DNA of 64,000 nucleotides from Parabacteroides distasonis (GTDB taxonomy: Bacteria; Bacteroidota; Bacteroidia; Bacteroidales; Tannerellaceae), in the NCBI RefSeq assembly GCF_004793765.1, contig NZ_SRYM01000012.1:1-64000 (forward strand). The letters run 5' to 3'. A program made the translations under genes and the position numbers. Shown piece after piece: positions 1 through 46,674 of the stretch. How positions within the stretch are numbered: the stretch's first letter is position 1; each line of letters starts with the position of its first letter. A model generated the notes under the pieces. That model was not told the DNA's origin, did not search any database, and worked only from the letters and a program-made list of their open reading frames with translations.

Positions 1-27
1 CTGAAAATTGCCATACCTTGAAATATC

Positions 28-48
28 AGGCTACTTGGGGAGTAGCCT
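28..48 (+). repeat. Left inverted repeat (recombination site)
   Basis: AGGCTACT, a 5-nt core TGGGG, then AGTAGCCT. The two 8-nt arms are perfectly complementary, as expected for two recombinase monomers binding around a short crossover core. It is the exact reverse complement of the repeat at 282-302. Confidence 0.85.
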
Positions 49-259
49 AAAAGGTGCGAGAACGGTTATCACCCGTCTCTACAGGAATACACACAAGTTA
101 TGAGGCATGGTGGAATGATACCGGAAAAGAGGTCATTTCACCCGCATCACCATGTCTATACGTCTAGGATAAAATAGGAAAATCAAAGAATAGAGAGAAT
201 CAAACGCCTACAATGAGTAAACAAGCACATTTGTTTGCTTGTTTTTAGTTATTTTTTAC

Positions 260-267
260 TACATTTG
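260..267 (+). promoter_or_regulatory. -7 box of the invertible promoter
   Basis: TACATTTG matches the Bacteroidetes -7 consensus TAnnTTTG exactly. A TTTG at 234-237 lies 22 nt upstream as a -33 element. Transcription would start near 273, cross the right repeat and run antisense to the recombinase gene. Confidence 0.65.
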
Positions 268-281
268 CGCCATGAAATCTT

Positions 282-302
282 AGGCTACTCCCCAAGTAGC
301 CT
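282..302 (-). repeat. Right inverted repeat, overlapping recombinase stop
   Basis: AGGCTACT, core CCCCA, AGTAGCCT: the exact reverse complement of 28-48. On the minus strand it encodes the last residues RLLGE and the TAG stop (285-287) of the adjacent recombinase, so the recombination site is part of the coding sequence. Because arms and core are regenerated by crossover between identical sites, inversion should leave the C-terminus unchanged. Confidence 0.85.
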
Positions 303-1235
303 CAACCCCACCTTTGGCATATAATTATATACATTCTCAAAGCAAGACTTATTTACCACCGTCATTTTCTCCAAGGAGAAACTTCTTAGATAAATCTGGG
401 TTGTCTTGATGGACTTATGCCCCAATAACTCGCTGATCATCTCAATGGGGACATTTTGTTCCTTCAAAGCCATGGCAAAAGAATGACGGATCGTGTAAGA
501 AGTCACATCCGAGGCTATTCCGGCAACCTCCTTCAACATCCTCAAGTTCCGGTTAAACCGGGACAAGGCCGCATTGTATTCGAGATATTCCTCATGGCCG
601 TTCTTCTTCCCACTTAAAAAGGGAAATAAATAGCCGGAGCCTCCACCCCTCTCACCTGCCAGCTCCTTATACATAACCTCCGCCGTATCCAAGACCTCCA
701 ACCGCATAGAGGTCCCAGTCTTCTGGCGATTGTAATCCAATATGCCGTTCTTGATATTACCCCTATTCAAATGGGCGAAATCAACGAACGACATCCCCCC
801 ATATTGAAACATCAAGCAAAGCGTCAGCTGTGTCTTCCTCAACTTCTCTCCTTTTACCGGGACAGTCATCAGGCGATTCAAATCACCCAGAGGCAAGGAT
901 TTCTTGCGCTGGCTTTCCACACCCGTAAAAACCCCCTTGAATAATGAAGGGATAAACGCCGCCTCGCCATTCTCCACCGCCTTGTTATAGATACAACGCA
1001 AACGGCGGATATACGTGGAGACCGTATTACGCATGCAGCCTTTCTCCAACAAATAAGCCTCGTACCGGCGAAGAGTATCCTTATTTATATATGTATATGG
1101 GATACGATCCGTCCCGCTATACCGTATAAAAGAGTTCATCGCATCCTGATAACTTTTCGCCGAGGAATACCGTCCTTCCTTTTGTAACAGACTTATATAC
1201 TCTCGCATCCCTTCCACCAAATCTTTCTCATCCAT
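285..1235 (-). CDS. Tyrosine-type site-specific recombinase
   Basis: A 316-residue tyrosine recombinase that probably inverts the promoter segment next to it. The N-terminal SAM-like DNA-binding domain (about residues 1-100) is followed by the catalytic domain. Visible catalytic elements are the beta-hairpin Lys in NRQKTGT, the IRHSFA box, the LLGHKS His, and the nucleophile Tyr in TTQIYLRS. Where Bacteroidetes recombinases usually carry the first catalytic Arg (RGMSF), this protein reads YGGMSF. The usual His before the second Arg is Tyr (SYTIRH). The 3' end overlaps the right inverted repeat. Length is slightly short for chromosomal integrases (~300-400). With no other phage or transposon genes nearby, an invertase role is preferred over an integrase of a mobile element. 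Confidence 0.9.
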   Translation of the reverse strand: MDEKDLVEGMREYISLLQKEGRYSSAKSYQDAMNSFIRYSGTDRIPYTYINKDTLRRYEAYLLEKGCMRNTVSTYIRRLRCIYNKAVENGEAAFIPSLFKGVFTGVESQRKKSLPLGDLNRLMTVPVKGEKLRKTQLTLCLMFQYGGMSFVDFAHLNRGNIKNGILDYNRQKTGTSMRLEVLDTAEVMYKELAGERGGGSGYLFPFLSGKKNGHEEYLEYNAALSRFNRNLRMLKEVAGIASDVTSYTIRHSFAMALKEQNVPIEMISELLGHKSIKTTQIYLRSFSLEKMTVVNKSCFENVYNYMPKVGLRLLGE

Positions 1236-1336
1236 ATCTCTCTATTTTAAATTCCAATTGAAAACAAACACGCAAAATTAGACATCCTGACAAATTATAT
1301 CTTTTGCGGCAAGTTGTTTTATTGACGAATAGCCAC

Positions 1337-1344
1337 TATATTTG
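1337..1344 (+). promoter_or_regulatory. Promoter (-7 box) for the DUF4494 gene
   Basis: TATATTTG is a perfect TAnnTTTG box. GTTG at 1313-1316 sits 20 nt upstream as a -33 element. It lies 46 nt before the ATG at 1391 and probably serves DUF4494, the YggS-like gene and the DHOD-like gene. On the opposite strand CAAAATTA (1273-1280) is a candidate -7 box for the recombinase. Confidence 0.6.
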
Positions 1345-1390
1345 TACGTTGTTTTAAACAGAGTACAGACTAAATTAAAAAGTAAAGCAT

Positions 1391-1894
1391 ATGCACAATT
1401 GGTTTGAATGTAAGGTCTCTTACGAGAAAATGCTGGAAAATGGCATGCAGAAAAAAGTAACCGAGCCTTACTTGGTAGACGCCCTGTCTTTTACGGAAGC
1501 GGAAGCTCGCATCATCGAGGAGATCCGCCCCTTCATCACGGGTGAATTCACGGTAACAGACATCAAACGAGCTCGTTTATCCGAATTATTCTTCAATGAG
1601 AATGGTGATCGGTTCTATAAGATCAAGGTTTATTTTATCACGTTGGACGAGAAGAGTGGAGCGGAAAAGAAAACCGCCGCACAAATGCTTGCCCAAGCCA
1701 CTACGCTGAAAGAGGCCATCGCCGTATTGGAAGATGGAATGAAAGGTACATTGGCGGATTATACCATCGCCTCGGTAACGGAAACCCAGTTGATGGATGT
1801 ATTCCCATTCGACGCGAACAGTATTCCCGGCGAGAAGAAAAGCGGCGAGGAACTGATAGCTGAACAAAAACAACAAGCTGAACAAAGAGGATAA
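1391..1894 (+). CDS. DUF4494 domain-containing protein
   Basis: A 167-residue soluble protein recognised as DUF4494, a Bacteroidetes family without known function. It opens MHNWFECKVSYEK and has the family pattern of a domain rich in beta strands and short helices (FTEAEARI, FYKIKVYF). The C-terminal tail is rich in Gln, Glu and Lys. No signal peptide or membrane segment is present. It ends 4 nt before the YggS-type gene, so the two are probably co-transcribed; that pairing is the only clue to function. Confidence 0.85.
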   Translation: MHNWFECKVSYEKMLENGMQKKVTEPYLVDALSFTEAEARIIEEIRPFITGEFTVTDIKRARLSELFFNENGDRFYKIKVYFITLDEKSGAEKKTAAQMLAQATTLKEAIAVLEDGMKGTLADYTIASVTETQLMDVFPFDANSIPGEKKSGEELIAEQKQQAEQRG

Positions 1895-1898
1895 AAAC

Positions 1899-2567
1899 AT
1901 GAGCATCGCTCAAAACATAGTACAACTGAAAACGTCGCTCCCGCAAGGGGTGACGTTGGTTGCCGTCTCTAAGTTTCACCCGGTGGAAGCTCTATGGGAG
2001 GCTTACGATGCCGGGCAGCGGGTGTTTGGCGAAAGCAGGGCACAGGAACTGAGCGCCAAGCAAAAAGTACTACCTGAGGATATCGAATGGCATTTTATCG
2101 GTCCGTTACAAAGCAATAAGGTAAAAGATATCGCTCCTTTTATTCATTTGATCCATAGCATAGACTCCTTGAAGCTTTTGGCAGAGGTGAATAAACAAGC
2201 GAAAAAAAACGACCGCACGATCCGGGTATTATTGGAGATCCATGTGGCGCAAGAGGAATCCAAGCACGGACTCAGTCCCGAGGAATGCAAGGAGTTGTTG
2301 CGTGACGAGTCCTTGGCCGAATTCCAGCATATTCGTATTTGCGGATTGATGGGCATGGCTACCAATACCGATGATACGGGGTTGATACGGGAAGAATTCC
2401 GCAAGATCCATGATTTATTTATCGAACTGAAAGAGACGCTCTGTAAAGATAATGTCGATTTCAAGGAGATATCCATGGGGATGAGCCACGATTACCCGAT
2501 CGCTATCCAAGAAGGAAGCACCTTGATACGGGTGGGTACCAGTATCTTTGGCGAACGGGAATATTAA
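1899..2567 (+). CDS. YggS-family pyridoxal phosphate homeostasis protein
   Basis: A 222-residue PLP-binding protein of the YggS/PROSC (PLPBP) family, which keeps the free pyridoxal phosphate pool and amino/keto acid metabolism in balance and has no known catalytic reaction. The PLP lysine is Lys25 in VAVSKFHP. Other family motifs are FGESRAQEL, WHFIGPLQSNK, GLMGMAT and, near the C-terminus, SMGMSHDY and LIRVGTSIFG. Length is normal. It starts 4 nt after DUF4494. A pyridoxal kinase gene lies at 23 kb but is not linked. Confidence 0.93.
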   Translation: MSIAQNIVQLKTSLPQGVTLVAVSKFHPVEALWEAYDAGQRVFGESRAQELSAKQKVLPEDIEWHFIGPLQSNKVKDIAPFIHLIHSIDSLKLLAEVNKQAKKNDRTIRVLLEIHVAQEESKHGLSPEECKELLRDESLAEFQHIRICGLMGMATNTDDTGLIREEFRKIHDLFIELKETLCKDNVDFKEISMGMSHDYPIAIQEGSTLIRVGTSIFGEREY

Positions 2568-2596
2568 AGTAATTATTAAATCTAAATATAGGCAAC

Positions 2597-3574
2597 ATGA
2601 TTGACATTAAAACCCAATACGCGGGGTTAACACTTCGCAATCCGATTATCGTAGGGAGCTCCGGACTCACCAATAAGGCGGAACGTAACAGGGATTTTGA
2701 GAAAGCAGGAGCTGGAGCTATCGTATTGAAATCTCTTTTCGAAGAGCAGATCGAAATGCAGAGCGAGGCTTTGATGCAAGACTCTGATTACCCCGAAGCG
2801 GCGGATTATATCCGTGGTTATGTAAAAGCGAATCAAGTAAATGATTATCTGGAACTGATCAAAAAGAGCAAGGAATTATGTACGATCCCTATCATAGCCA
2901 GCATCAATTGCTATAAGGCGGACGCTTGGATCGATTTCGCCCGTCAAATCGAGTTGGCGGGGGCGGACGCTCTGGAATTGAACGTGTTCTTCATGGAAAC
3001 CGAACTGACCGAAAATCTCGAGAGTATCCGGGATACGTATGTCAGTATCATCCGCAAGGTAAAAGAGACCGTATCGATTCCGGTTATTATGAAAATCGGA
3101 AAGAATTACAGCAATATTCCTTCGCTGGTTCATTTGTTGAAAGCAAACGGTGCAGACGGTGTCGTGCTATTCAACCGTTTCTATCAGCCGGACATCGATA
3201 TCAATAATATGCAGATTGTTTCGGGTAATGTATTTAGCAATCATTCCGATTTGAGCGACACGATTCGCTGGACGGCTATCGTATCCGGAAAGATCCCGGG
3301 AATCAGTATTGCTTCCTCTACCGGGGTACATGATTGGGAAGATGTCGTTAAATGTCTATTGGCCGGCGCTTCCGCCGTACAGATGTGTAGCGCTGTCTAT
3401 ACACATGGAGCGGAAATCATCTCCCAAGTATTGACTTGCGTGGAAGAGTGGATGCATCAGGCACATTACCAATCCCTTTCCCAATTCCAAGGCAAATTGA
3501 ATTACGCCAATATCCCGAACCCGGCGATGTATGAGCGTTCACAATTCATGAAATATTTCTCCAACAGAGATTAA
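2597..3574 (+). CDS. Dihydroorotate dehydrogenase-like protein
   Basis: A 325-residue TIM-barrel flavoprotein resembling class 1 dihydroorotate dehydrogenases. Visible elements are NPIIVGSSGLT near the N-terminus (phosphate/FMN loop region), ELNVFF, PVIMKIGKN and GASAVQMCSAV near the C-terminus. It belongs to the group annotated as DHOD-like, which differs from PyrD in the substrate loop, so dihydroorotate oxidation should not be assumed. It is the third gene of the 1391-3574 series, 29 nt after the YggS-like gene, and ends just before a GC-rich palindrome that may stop transcription. Confidence 0.85.
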   Translation: MIDIKTQYAGLTLRNPIIVGSSGLTNKAERNRDFEKAGAGAIVLKSLFEEQIEMQSEALMQDSDYPEAADYIRGYVKANQVNDYLELIKKSKELCTIPIIASINCYKADAWIDFARQIELAGADALELNVFFMETELTENLESIRDTYVSIIRKVKETVSIPVIMKIGKNYSNIPSLVHLLKANGADGVVLFNRFYQPDIDINNMQIVSGNVFSNHSDLSDTIRWTAIVSGKIPGISIASSTGVHDWEDVVKCLLAGASAVQMCSAVYTHGAEIISQVLTCVEEWMHQAHYQSLSQFQGKLNYANIPNPAMYERSQFMKYFSNRD

Positions 3575-3590
3575 AAGAAATACCTAGTAA

Positions 3591-3615
3591 TAGAGACGGG
3601 CACGCCCCGTCTCTA
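3591..3615. repeat. REP-like palindrome / possible terminator
   Basis: TAGAGACGGG, a 5-nt loop, CCCGTCTCTA. The perfect 10-bp stem lies 16 nt after the DHOD-like gene. A similar but longer palindrome is at 39061-39092, and a half-site CCCGTCTCTACA lies at 72-83 inside the invertible segment, so this is a dispersed repeat and not only a local terminator. Confidence 0.65.
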
Positions 3616-3642
3616 CTATAGGATAATATACAATAGTCTTAA

Positions 3643-3662
3643 TTATTTTCTACTAGAAAGTA
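3643..3662. promoter_or_regulatory. Candidate MarR operator, site 1
   Basis: The motif TTATT-n-TCTACTA-nn-AA-n-TA lies just upstream of the marR gene. It agrees at 16 of 20 positions with a site in front of the next gene (4101-4120). It also forms the left arm of a perfect 9-bp inverted repeat, TATTTTCTA (3644-3652) and TAGAAAATA (3670-3678). The position over the -33 region would suit autorepression. Confidence 0.5.
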
Positions 3663-3682
3663 TTTTTATTAGAAAATAGTTA

Positions 3683-3690
3683 TATCTTTG
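3683..3690 (+). promoter_or_regulatory. Promoter (-7 box) for marR gene
   Basis: TATCTTTG is a perfect TAnnTTTG box, 26 nt before the ATG at 3717. The right arm of the inverted repeat ends 5 nt upstream of it, so a bound regulator would block polymerase. Confidence 0.6.
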
Positions 3691-3716
3691 CATCATCAAA
3701 CAAGTTATAAAGAAAT

Positions 3717-4082
3717 ATGGAACCAATTTGCGCCATAAAGGATATCTATAAGATACTGTACCAGTTCGAGAAAAATTTCTCGGAAGTACATGCTATCACC
3801 ATTAACGAGGCCATGTTGCTTTGTTGCTTAAAGGATAATGAGGCAAAGTCTGCGGGAATGATTTGCGATTATATCGGTCTTTCAAATTCCCGGGTCTCAA
3901 AGGTGATCACCTCCGTCGAGAACAAGGGATTTATCCGCAGAAACATCAATAAAGAGGATAAGCGGCAAATGTTTTTCTCGCTCACCCCAAAAGGGAAAGA
4001 GAAAATACAACAGATGATGCAGGCCGAGCTAAACATGGACAGCTTGTTCAATCAACTCAAAGAATACATACAGAAGGGATGA
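3717..4082 (+). CDS. MarR-family transcriptional regulator
   Basis: A 121-residue MarR-type winged-helix repressor. The middle shows the recognition helix and wing: ICDYIGLSNSRVSKVITSVENKGFIRR, given here in pieces IGLSNSRVSKV and NKGFIRRNINKEDKRQMFFSL, the classic D-x-R wing. Shorter than most MarR proteins (~140-150), with a short C-terminal dimer helix. It precedes the sulfur-trafficking flavoprotein by 67 nt, and both promoters carry the same TCTACTA-containing motif. It probably represses itself and that gene in response to a thiol, sulfide or oxidant signal; the ligand is inference. Cys residues at the N-terminus (CAIKD) and in ICDY could be redox sensors. Confidence 0.88.
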   Translation: MEPICAIKDIYKILYQFEKNFSEVHAITINEAMLLCCLKDNEAKSAGMICDYIGLSNSRVSKVITSVENKGFIRRNINKEDKRQMFFSLTPKGKEKIQQMMQAELNMDSLFNQLKEYIQKG

Positions 4083-4100
4083 ATCCCTTTTTTTAACCAA

Positions 4101-4120
4101 TTATTGTCTACTAACAAATA
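4101..4120. promoter_or_regulatory. Candidate MarR operator, site 2
   Basis: A second copy of the motif at 3643-3662 (16 of 20 identical, including TCTACTA), placed 30 nt before the start of the CoA-disulfide reductase fusion. The sharing of an otherwise unrepeated motif between a regulator and its neighbour suggests a local regulon. Confidence 0.5.
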
Positions 4121-4149
4121 TGTATAATACAAATTAAATAAAAATAGAT

Positions 4150-6618
4150 ATGAAGTACTTGATTATTGGAGGTGTAGCCGGTGGAGCTACCGTAGCGGCC
4201 CGGCTGCGTAGAATGGACGAGAAAGCGGAAATCATCCTTTTCGAACGTGGGAAATATGTTTCTTACGCAAACTGTGGATTACCTTATTATATAGGAGACA
4301 CGATCAACGACCGGAATAAATTATTCGTACAAACCGTGAAAGGCTTCACGGATCGATTCCGCATCGATATCCGTACGGAGCAGGAAGTGACCCGAATCCT
4401 TCCCGAATCCAAGCAAGTGGAGGTAAAGAAACTCGGCACAGGAGAAACCTACACGGAGACTTACGATAAACTAGTGCTCTCTCCCGGTGCGGAGCCTTTG
4501 CGTCCACGCATCGAAGGAATCGAGAGTAAAAAGATATTCACGTTACGTAACGTACCGGATACGGACACGATCAAGAATTACGTGAACACGGAAAAGCCCC
4601 GTACCGCCGTTGTTGTAGGAGGTGGTTTCATCGGCTTGGAGATGGCGGAGAATTTGCATGAGCTGGGTATCCACGTCACTGTCGTGGAAATGGCTAACCA
4701 AGTGATGGCACCCCTCGACTATTCCATGGCCGCTATCGTACATCAGCAGTTGATCGGCAAGCAGGTAGGCTTGATGCTGGAAGATGGCGTATCTCGTTTC
4801 GAGGAGACCTCCGGAGGCGTGACCGTTCATTTGAAAAGTGGGAAGCAGATCCCGGCGGATATGGTTTTATTGAGTATCGGTGTCCGTCCGGAAACCCGAT
4901 TGGCCAAGGAAGCGGGACTTTCGATCGGAGCACTCGGCGGTATCGCTGTCAATGAATATATGCAGACCTCGAACCCGGATATTTATGCGTTGGGAGATGC
5001 CGTGGAAGTACGCCACCTCGTGACAGGCAAACCGGCCTTGATCCCATTGGCGGGTCCGGCGAATAAGCAAGGACGCATCGTAGCCGATAATATCGTATTC
5101 GGCAATAAGGTAACTTATGATGGGACGATGGGAACCTCTATCGCCAAGGTATTCGACTTGACGGTCGCCACGGCGGGGGCTAACGCTAAGCTGTTGAAAC
5201 GGGAAGGAATCGCTTATCAATCCTCCTATACGCATGGAGCCTCGCATGCGGGATATTACCCGGGAGCCGTGCCTTTATCGATCAAGATATTGTTCGCGCC
5301 GGAAGGCGGACGACTGTTAGGAGCGCAAATCGTAGGTTTCGGCGGCGTAGACAAACGGATCGAGATGTTAGCGCAAGTGATCCAGCGGAAAGGTACGGTC
5401 TACGACCTGGCAGAGTTAGAACATGCGTACGCTCCTCCTTATTCAGCCGCTAAAGATCCCGTAAATATGGCCGGCTTCGTAGCGGAGAACCTACTTACGG
5501 GAAAAGCGAAAGCGATTCGGTGGAGAGAGATCCAGAACTTATCGCCAGATACCGTACGTATCGATGTCCGTACCCGTGACGAGTACAGCTTAGGGACAAT
5601 CCCCGGCTTCATCAATATCCCGGTTGATGAGTTAAGAGAACATTTGGCGGAACTGCCCAAGGATACACCGATCGTAGTGACTTGCGCCGTTGGATTAAGG
5701 GGCTATTTGGCTTATCGCATCCTGACTCAAAATGGCTTCACGAATGTCCGGAACCTATCCGGTGGTTACAAGACTTGGAGTGTAGCGACAGCAAAGATCA
5801 AGAATGAGCCGGCCTGCGCACCTTGTTCGTCCGAAGCTGTTTCTGATAAGGCATCTGGTAAAAGTAGCTCTTGCAAATCGACTCCGGCAGCTACGGCGAT
5901 TAAGGTAGACGCTTGCGGATTAATGTGTCCGGGACCGATCATGCAGTTGAAAAAGAACTATGAGAACTTGCGGGAAGATGAGTCTTTGGAAATCACCGCA
6001 ACGGATCAGGCCTTCGGAAAAGATGTCTCTTCATGGTGCAAGATAACCGGGGCAGAGTTAGTCTCTCTGGAAAATAAGGGAGGTACGATCGCCGCCACGG
6101 TACGAAAAAAAAAAGCTGAATGCAAAATAGCGACAGGTGGCAACAACACCGACAACAAGACATTGATCGTTTTCAGCGATGATCTCGATAAGGCGTTGGC
6201 CTCATTCGTCATAGCGAACGGGGCCGCCTCCACCGGAAAAAAGGTGACCATGTTCTTTACCTTCTGGGGGCTTAACGTGATTAAGAAGCGGGAAAAACCT
6301 GCCGTATCTAAAGATATCTTCGGCAAGATGTTCGGCTGGATGCTTCCGGCAAATAGCGAAAAGCTGAAACTATCTAAAATGAATATGGGTGGAGCCGGAA
6401 GCTGGATGATGCGCCTTATCATGAGGAAGAAACGGATCGACAGCTTGGAAAGCCTTATGGCACAAGCCGTAGAGAATGGTATCGAGATGATCGCCTGCAC
6501 GATGAGCATGGACGTAATGGGCGTCAAAAAAGAAGAACTGATGGATAACGTTGTCCTAGGAGGCGTAGCCACCTATCTGGAACGTGCGGAAGACGCGAAC
6601 GTAAACTTATTCATCTAA
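4150..6618 (+). CDS. CoA-disulfide reductase / rhodanese / TusA / DsrE fusion protein
   Basis: An 822-residue four-domain protein. Residues 1-~450 are a FAD/NAD(P)H disulfide reductase of the CoADR/NADH-oxidase type: GGVAGGATVA dinucleotide loop, single active Cys42 in SYANCGLP, second nucleotide loop GGGFIGLEMAENL. Residues ~460-550 are a rhodanese with Cys512 in TCAVGLRG. Residues ~585-660 are TusA-like with Cys593 in the CPGP motif. The last ~160 residues match the DsrE/DsrF-like family (cytoplasmic, YeeE-type sulfur carriers). The domains together suggest reduction of CoA or protein persulfides/polysulfide and hand-over of sulfane sulfur. A Cys-rich linker (ACAPCSS) separates rhodanese and TusA. 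Substrate is inferred. Probably controlled by the upstream MarR protein. Confidence 0.92.
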   Translation: MKYLIIGGVAGGATVAARLRRMDEKAEIILFERGKYVSYANCGLPYYIGDTINDRNKLFVQTVKGFTDRFRIDIRTEQEVTRILPESKQVEVKKLGTGETYTETYDKLVLSPGAEPLRPRIEGIESKKIFTLRNVPDTDTIKNYVNTEKPRTAVVVGGGFIGLEMAENLHELGIHVTVVEMANQVMAPLDYSMAAIVHQQLIGKQVGLMLEDGVSRFEETSGGVTVHLKSGKQIPADMVLLSIGVRPETRLAKEAGLSIGALGGIAVNEYMQTSNPDIYALGDAVEVRHLVTGKPALIPLAGPANKQGRIVADNIVFGNKVTYDGTMGTSIAKVFDLTVATAGANAKLLKREGIAYQSSYTHGASHAGYYPGAVPLSIKILFAPEGGRLLGAQIVGFGGVDKRIEMLAQVIQRKGTVYDLAELEHAYAPPYSAAKDPVNMAGFVAENLLTGKAKAIRWREIQNLSPDTVRIDVRTRDEYSLGTIPGFINIPVDELREHLAELPKDTPIVVTCAVGLRGYLAYRILTQNGFTNVRNLSGGYKTWSVATAKIKNEPACAPCSSEAVSDKASGKSSSCKSTPAATAIKVDACGLMCPGPIMQLKKNYENLREDESLEITATDQAFGKDVSSWCKITGAELVSLENKGGTIAATVRKKKAECKIATGGNNTDNKTLIVFSDDLDKALASFVIANGAASTGKKVTMFFTFWGLNVIKKREKPAVSKDIFGKMFGWMLPANSEKLKLSKMNMGGAGSWMMRLIMRKKRIDSLESLMAQAVENGIEMIACTMSMDVMGVKKEELMDNVVLGGVATYLERAEDANVNLFI

Positions 6619-45315: not shown

Positions 45316-46674
45316 TTAAATACCTTTACCTGTAAAAACTGTTTTAACTGTATAAATGAGAATCGTTATGTCCAGAATCAAGGACATATTCTCATAGTAT
45401 AATATATCATATTCCAAGCGCTCGATCATCTCATCCACGCTACCGGCATATCCATATTTCACCATTCCCAAAGAGGTGATTCCCGGACGGACGTTATGCA
45501 GTAAATAATAGAAGGGAGCTTTCCTCACGATCCGCTCGATGAAATATTTACGTTCCGGACGGGGACCGACTAGCGACATATCCCCTTTCAGCACGTTCCA
45601 GAACTGCGGTAACTCGTCCAAGCGATATTTCCGCATCACCCGTCCGAAGGGAGTGATACGACAATCGTCCTCGGAAGAGAGCAACGGACCTTCCTCCTCG
45701 GCGTTCGTATACATCGTGCGGAACTTATAGATCATGAAAGGTTCGCCCATGTATCCGATCCGTTCCTGACTGAAAAACACAGGACCAGGGGAATCCCTCT
45801 TCACCCGCCAAGCGATATACAGGAACAAAGGAGATAAGAGCACCAAGAAAAACAGAGACAACATCTTATCCATAAAGAGCTTTACATTCTGCTCGATGGG
45901 CAAGAAGTTATTATCCGTCACGTCCACCAGTGGAACGCCTTTTATCGCCTTGATCTTCACTTGCGATAATGAACTGGACTTATCCGCTAATATCTTGATC
46001 GGCCGTTTATAGCAATATAACGAATACAGGATATCCATCAAACGACTATTATCCACCGTCTCCAAGGCGACAACCAGCTCATCTACCTTTTTCTCCTCTA
46101 CGATCGCTGGCAAGGATTCCAAGTTGGATTCAGAGACAAAGCCGACGATATTATAACCCAACCCATACAGGTCGTCGGCAATACAGGCCGCCTTCTTCCC
46201 CGCCCCGATCATCAATACGTTCAACGCCCATTCCCTACATTTTATCTTCCGCAACCCGGCCTGCGTAATCAATAACCGGAGAACATACGTCAAGGCAAAC
46301 TGCAATCCCCATAAGGAGAAAAACATATCATAATACACATGATAGGAACGGGGCAAGTCGTTCAGCACTAAGGCAAAAAACAAGATCACGACACCAATCG
46401 ACACGCTCCCAAGAGTAGAGAATAACTCGGTAAGCCTCGACTTACCGAAGGGCTTATTATAATAACCGGAAAACCAATATAATACGAACCAGAAAAGCGG
46501 GATCAACAACTGCCCCTTCAACGAGGGGATATGCAGCAAAAAAGCCCCGACGGTATCAAACCCTTCATACACCGCCACCTCCTCATAGCGTATTAGGTTA
46601 AATAATAACCAGACTGCCGACGACGCAATAAAATCCGAGACAATATATTTTCCGGCTTGTACGCTTTTCTTCAT
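45316..46674 (-). CDS. Polyprenyl-glycosylphosphotransferase (sugar transferase)
   Basis: A 452-residue WcaJ/WbaP-type enzyme that starts polysaccharide or glycan synthesis by transferring a sugar-1-phosphate to undecaprenyl phosphate. The N-terminal part has about four membrane segments and a CoA-binding-like nucleotide fold (VLMIGAGKKAA), and the C-terminal catalytic domain has KFRTMYTNAEEEGP, RLDELPQFWNVLKGDMSLVGPRPE (as ELPQFWNVLKG and SLVGPRPE). Lies 2 nt after tsaC and 1 nt before the ClC gene. It is not next to glycosyltransferase genes, so it may serve several pathways. Confidence 0.93.
   Translation of the reverse strand: MKKSVQAGKYIVSDFIASSAVWLLFNLIRYEEVAVYEGFDTVGAFLLHIPSLKGQLLIPLFWFVLYWFSGYYNKPFGKSRLTELFSTLGSVSIGVVILFFALVLNDLPRSYHVYYDMFFSLWGLQFALTYVLRLLITQAGLRKIKCREWALNVLMIGAGKKAACIADDLYGLGYNIVGFVSESNLESLPAIVEEKKVDELVVALETVDNSRLMDILYSLYCYKRPIKILADKSSSLSQVKIKAIKGVPLVDVTDNNFLPIEQNVKLFMDKMLSLFFLVLLSPLFLYIAWRVKRDSPGPVFFSQERIGYMGEPFMIYKFRTMYTNAEEEGPLLSSEDDCRITPFGRVMRKYRLDELPQFWNVLKGDMSLVGPRPERKYFIERIVRKAPFYYLLHNVRPGITSLGMVKYGYAGSVDEMIERLEYDILYYENMSLILDITILIYTVKTVFTGKGI

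Follow-up and report, generated by a model that had tools for sequence, protein, structure and literature searches.

Introduction

Phase-variable surface loci of Bacteroides fragilis are served by tyrosine recombinases known as Tsr, and the master recombinase of that species is presumably the enzyme called Mpi. The master recombinase is of the serine type, and Parabacteroides distasonis has numerous inversion sites, as set out in the available part of the report (PMC5903667). In P. distasonis APCS2/PD the repeat GCTACTYRGNRAGTAGC stands around a promoter region of 314-345 bp in 10 of 12 capsule operons, an integrase gene precedes it, and the strains studied are said to co-exist with phages primarily through capsule switching, all according to the available portion of the source (PMC12118408). 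These capsule promoters, taken together with the inversion sites of P. distasonis, mean that the type of switch considered here is already known, as far as those portions of the two reports go. Recombination sites that lie within recombinase genes are described for other systems: in the excerpts used here, attP of Myxococcus phage Mx8 is inside int (PMC6070905), and the target site of the archaeal suicidal integrases of SSV type is within the integrase gene (PMC8371274). A literature search for a recombinase gene that overlaps its own site in an inversion switch gave only a review of archaeal integrases; absence from print is not claimed.

The locus described here lies at the left end of the window, by which we mean the whole stretch of 64,000 nucleotides of P. 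distasonis DNA that was analysed (G000:C33:1-64000; position 1 is a contig end). Judging from comparisons of sequence, we consider it a capsule-locus phase switch of Parabacteroides with its recombinase, in which the read-through of the recombinase gene into the adjacent site would be a local change, and we give this reading a probability of about 0.92.

Results

Inverted repeats and the adjoining recombinase gene

The features of the locus are collected in Table 1. Its two sites belong to an inverted repeat whose 23-nt arms, at 28-50 and 280-302, are 100% complementary. The longest exact inverted repeat in positions 1-3000 is 23 nt, compared with a maximum of 15 nt in 200 dinucleotide shuffles of the same region, and a chance origin of the repeat was rejected on this ground. 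As the initial annotation had described, each arm holds a palindromic 8-5-8 repeat, and the two are exact copies in opposite orientation. The annotation had also proposed comparing them with the sites of phase-variable loci in other Parabacteroides; this comparison gave a match to the published consensus GCTACTYRGNRAGTAGC, which is present as an inverted 17-nt repeat at C33:30-46 (plus) and 284-300 (minus). Minus-strand RNA of 265-330 and of 20-60 is predicted to form strong hairpins (z-scores of -3.3 and -4.5 relative to shuffles); with both sites folding in this way, the reading frame of the recombinase mRNA would end within a hairpin.

Table 1. Coordinates of features at the left end of the window.
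Feature	Position	Strand	Remarks
Short leader left of distal site	1-27	minus	Match of 1-75 to the leader that precedes the UpxY-like gene of L088, 93.3% over 75 nt
Distal site	28-48		AGGCTACTTGGGGAGTAGCCT in opposite orientation to 282-302; exact repeat 28-50
Presumed invertible segment	49-281		233 nt; 275 nt with sites
Terminator-like stem-loop	219-244		Overlaps first box of putative promoter motif
Bacteroidales-type promoter motif	234-267	+	TTTG-22 nt-TACATTTG; motif match, predicted
Recombinase-proximal site	282-302		21-nt 8-5-8 palindrome AGGCTACTTGGGGAGTAGCCT; exact repeat 280-302; codons RLLGE and stop inside
Tyrosine recombinase, 316 aa	285-1235	minus	Phage_int_SAM_5 (PF13102) and Phage_integrase (PF00589)
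Syntenic anchor genes	1391-3574	+	DUF4494 protein, 222-aa protein, 325-aa protein

The catalytic domain of the recombinase was matched in Pfam with E=1e-15. Recombinase matches in the window's own genome number 50, the six best of which (the window's included) are at least 55% identical; each of these six is followed directly by a site, and the sites behind the five paralogues have the same arms. R250, H273 and Y282 are invariant across the six, and two other usual positions differ in the window's protein: aligned with 4a8e, the known structure of a XerC-like recombinase, it seems to have lost the first catalytic Arg (GGMSFVDF) and the His of HxxR (TSYTIRHSF) to replacements. Similar departures at catalytic positions occur in Bacteroidales integrases. 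The possibility that the gene is a prophage or mobile-element integrase was rejected, as the best 80 of 155 viral relatives are all less than 35% identical to it and the locus shows capsule synteny instead.

The gene ends in PKVG-LRLLGE-stop, where LRLLGE is additional to the PKVG with which the five paralogues end. The open reading frame thus agrees with the initial annotation that the last five codons, RLLGE, and the stop lie within 282-302. Its further claim that inversion regenerates the coding end holds in silico as well: after a crossover placed in the spacers, the C-terminus and the 23-nt sites are as before, and the protein is left unchanged since the sites do not differ from each other over these 23 nt.

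Related loci in the genus

Among 38 genomes of the genus, the window's own included, 25 recombinases of this kind (E up to 1e-60, the window's included) were found in five, and 19 of the 25 are only 54-64% identical to that of the window. The exact consensus GCTACTYRGNRAGTAGC occurs in 43 copies in four of the 38 genomes (11, 19, 10 and 3 copies), its backward control in none of the 38, and all 43 copies adjoin one of the 25 recombinases by coordinates, one of them at 2.9 kb; in the fifth genome, G018, the site is a variant. When up to 2 mismatches were allowed, the looser pattern gave 20 matches in the window's genome and 35 for the backward control, per strand, and since it is no commoner than its control the signal rests on the strict consensus.

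Two sites within 700 nt, with one arm mismatch allowed per site, are present at 21 of the 25 loci. The loci that have no such pair are L018 (on contig C109), L069, L077 and L084, and at L069 and L077 the contig ends shortly past the site. The 5-nt spacer is equal in both copies at all 21 two-site loci, which have six spacer types between them, while shuffled pairings averaged 4.4 equal pairs and reached 12 at most; owing to the shared ancestry of related loci, the trials are not independent of one another. Differences between the two sites of a locus (n=21) fall at positions 1, 2, 20 and 21 (in 7, 8, 11 and 4 loci), once at position 3, and never at 4-19. In the first site, arm positions 3-7 and 15-19 show no variation across the 21 loci; the choice of sites, which allowed each no more than one arm mismatch, accounts for part of this constancy but has no share in that of the spacer. 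The matched spacers would fit with strand exchange that requires equal spacers, and equal spacers at each locus with variable flanking bases point to the place of that exchange. The idea that segments are exchanged only between loci of equal spacer was abandoned, since similar segments are found at different spacers too (for example L078 and L082).

With arms that hardly vary between loci, paralogous recombinases might act on one another's sites. The segment of the window could accordingly be inverted mainly by a paralogue, or the locus could be a relic that no longer inverts. We regard this as fairly unlikely, and it is for the most part compatible with a switch of the kind proposed here. The arms are constant even though most of the recombinases are so distant from the window's, C33 and C120 have the same spacer, TGGGG, and a single site was found at C109 of the same genome, all of which speak for it; against it stand the two sites, the promoter motif and the full-length recombinase gene, all intact in the window. 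The initial annotation had suggested deleting the recombinase gene and looking for loss of inversion. Given five paralogues and nearly constant arms, deletion of this gene alone may leave inversion going, and inversion in its absence would therefore not refute the switch.

The C109 locus (G000:C109:14107-14125; L018/L047) has one site, a second site and a promoter motif were not found within 700 nt of it, and the genome listing has no further exact copy of GCTACTYRGNRAGTAGC on that contig. A UpxY-like gene with a NusG domain follows its recombinase paralogue. The switch at C109 may have been lost or locked.

Three loci have unusual arrangements. The sites of L084/L093 in genome G004 (L093:4126-7051) are 2.9 kb apart and enclose two ORFs, which by inspection we take to be an IS21-type transposase pair. 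L080 (G004:C1:4423010-4423388) has three sites, its distal site being doubled with the copies 27 nt apart. At G023:C33:67571-67590, in a related genome, no more than 3 bases separate the end of the contig from the first site's core, which looks like a break of the assembly at the switch.

Orientation of the segment

The two-box motif TTTG-22-TACATTTG, which we take to be the Bacteroidales promoter type, is present in 9 of the 21 segments and its -7 box in 19, counted as motif matches only. By the same measure of motif matches, the -7 motif faces the recombinase in 14 of the 21, faces away from it in 5, and has no exact match in 2. In the window the motif faces the recombinase as assembled, and this orientation is presumed to be OFF for the capsule operon thought to lie to the left. 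A scan for sigma-70 promoters gave 1 match where 3.4 were expected; that promoter type is the wrong one for the phylum.

Some segment pairs match both ways through internal repeats, and the pairs cited here as opposite are those that have no same-orientation match. L071 and L074, both of genome G017, match in opposite orientation at 98.7% identity over 302 nt. The segment of the window is 95.7% identical to that of L078 over 208 nt in the same orientation, and 90.9% identical to that of L082 (G004) over 208 nt in the opposite one. From such pairs we infer that the window's segment inverts. The segment of the window is thus closest to L078, and its recombinase is closest to the syntenic L088/L072, a mosaic between loci. 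Start-to-start lengths in the 21 two-site loci range from 139 to 362 nt.

Left flank and capsule genes

Contig C120, on which a paralogous locus lies, starts with the same 55 bases as the window, so that the left site sits in sequence common to two contig ends. The 27 bases left of the site, sought in the window's genome with up to 3 mismatches, were found only at the starts of C33 and C120, and the start of C33 looks like an assembly break at shared sequence. The contig has nothing further left, and for this reason no capsule operon belonging to the window was found.

Locus L088 of genome G004 aligns to window positions 235-4830 at 97.7% and has the window's DUF4494 gene and its neighbours; of these, the 222-aa protein is, by inspection, presumably YggS-like and the 325-aa protein presumably dihydroorotate-dehydrogenase-like. 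Beyond the sites, L088 continues with a UpxY-like gene, a short gene and a sugar transferase (PF02397); about 6 kb past the latter, with other-strand ORFs between, lies a polysaccharide synthesis protein (PF01943). Loci on C87, C106 and C89 of the window's genome also lead into UpxY-like genes. By analogy we infer that capsule genes lie left of the window. A UpxY-like gene belonging to C33, sought in the same genome, gave matches only at C106, C89, C87 and C109, all of which have their own recombinases. The six UpxY-like proteins tested against NF033644 score 68-94 bits, below the cut-off of 100; three of four tested in Pfam have no match, and the one from C109 matches NusG. The sugar transferase of L088 has five weaker matches in the window's genome, at 36-47% identity. 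Within the window, 45325-45897 (minus) is 47% identical to the capsule-locus sugar transferase of G004 and lies within a 454-aa open frame.

The gene-site junction

The stop codon of the recombinase gene starts 0-11 nt before the site in 24 of the 25 loci, and the window alone reads into its site. Measured between the first base of the stop and that of the 21-nt site, the distance is 8 nt in nine loci, 2 nt in five, 9 nt in four, 10 nt in two, 11 nt in two, and 5, 0 and -15 nt in one each, the last being the window. A separate scan of genome contigs gave 11 loci, of which eight were analysed (L065, a partial match, and the distant L066 and L067 were left out); the stop starts 2-9 nt before the site in all eight, which were kept out of the 25 because several come from the same genomes as G017 and G023. 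Aligned with L072, its syntenic orthologue, and with L068, L069, L073 and L075, which are related, the window shows an extra base directly before the old stop; the old stop thereby falls out of frame, and six more codons (LRLLGE) are read up to a TAG in the palindrome. In a tree of the recombinases the window groups with L068, L069 and L072 (support 96/96), and those three stop at the edge of the site. The recombinases of L068 and L072, both of G004, are identical in protein sequence, which suggests recent copying or conversion.

A conserved fusion of gene and site was rejected on these findings, and they do not support the site within the gene as a design feature. What stands of the initial annotation is a recombinase beside inverted sites; by comparison, these enclose a promoter segment of the published capsule type. 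On the alignments at hand, the tight placing of gene against site is a conserved layout and the read-through is a local one-base change in the window. The simplest account of the overlap would be a change of length by one base in this strain, or an error of assembly.

An error of assembly or sequencing as the source of the extra base, with the real gene ending after PKVG, is unlikely and would in any case be compatible with the switch. The base is known from one draft assembly of 177 contigs, in which the nearest contig end is about 300 nt away, and the exact junction has 0 matches in a viral collection, which says little; against an error, the reading frame is unbroken upstream of the base, and short-read sequencing is not particularly prone to errors in short runs of G. 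Very improbable is selection for a site in the coding end that couples enzyme and substrate, for example through six extra residues that tune recombinase activity: the overlap is real in the assembly, and among the remaining 24 stop codons six touch the 21-nt site (five of them by one base, one by three), but sense codons are taken from the site in the window only (1/25 loci), and its nearest relatives in the tree stop at the edge and differ from it by the single base.

Discussion

If the locus is a capsule phase switch, the recombinase (or a paralogue) would bind the arms of both sites, and strand exchange in the spacer would invert 49-281. In the ON state the promoter would read left into a UpxY-type antiterminator gene and the capsule genes; in the OFF state, which is that of the assembly, it would read right, against the recombinase gene. 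The window's own recombinase is taken to carry out the inversion, and the putative promoter to be active. The OFF promoter would read without a gap into the recombinase gene from its 3' end and might damp the recombinase by antisense transcription in the OFF state only, a proposal we hold to be quite improbable. Under it the rates of switching to ON and to OFF could differ, with the tight junction, which 24 of 25 loci keep and the window exceeds, as the structural basis. A scan for terminator-like sites on the plus strand of 303-1400 gave none, which has weak bearing on antisense transcription.

The likeness to B. fragilis lies in the inversion of promoters at short inverted repeats that govern surface products. 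The site sequences of B. fragilis differ from those of the window, and its one master recombinase for many loci, as the partial source describes it, contrasts with one recombinase gene per locus here. Like the window, int of Mx8 has a site within the recombinase coding sequence, but according to the excerpt used recombination in Mx8 gives a new 3' end, whereas the protein of the window stays the same; integration of the SSV type, again as excerpted, splits the integrase gene, and the gene of the window remains whole on inversion in silico. Alteration or splitting of the recombinase gene by recombination, as in those two systems, was thus not found here, and the overlap of gene and site is by itself of minor importance.

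The locus agrees with the capsule switches of APCS2/PD, to the extent that the available portion of the report describes them (PMC12118408), in the site consensus GCTACTYRGNRAGTAGC, in the putative promoter between inverted copies and in the adjacent integrase gene. The NusG-type first gene given for APCS2/PD in that portion may be compared with the gene for a UpxY-like protein that L088 of G004, the syntenic locus, contains. The window differs from the published operons, as there described, in the end of its recombinase gene, which reads into the site, in that its own capsule genes were not found, and in its segment of 233 nt, below the published 314-345 bp and perhaps differently measured. 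Capsule switching shapes the encounters of gut Bacteroidales with phages, and the locus of the window adds one member to the published switch type of Parabacteroides.
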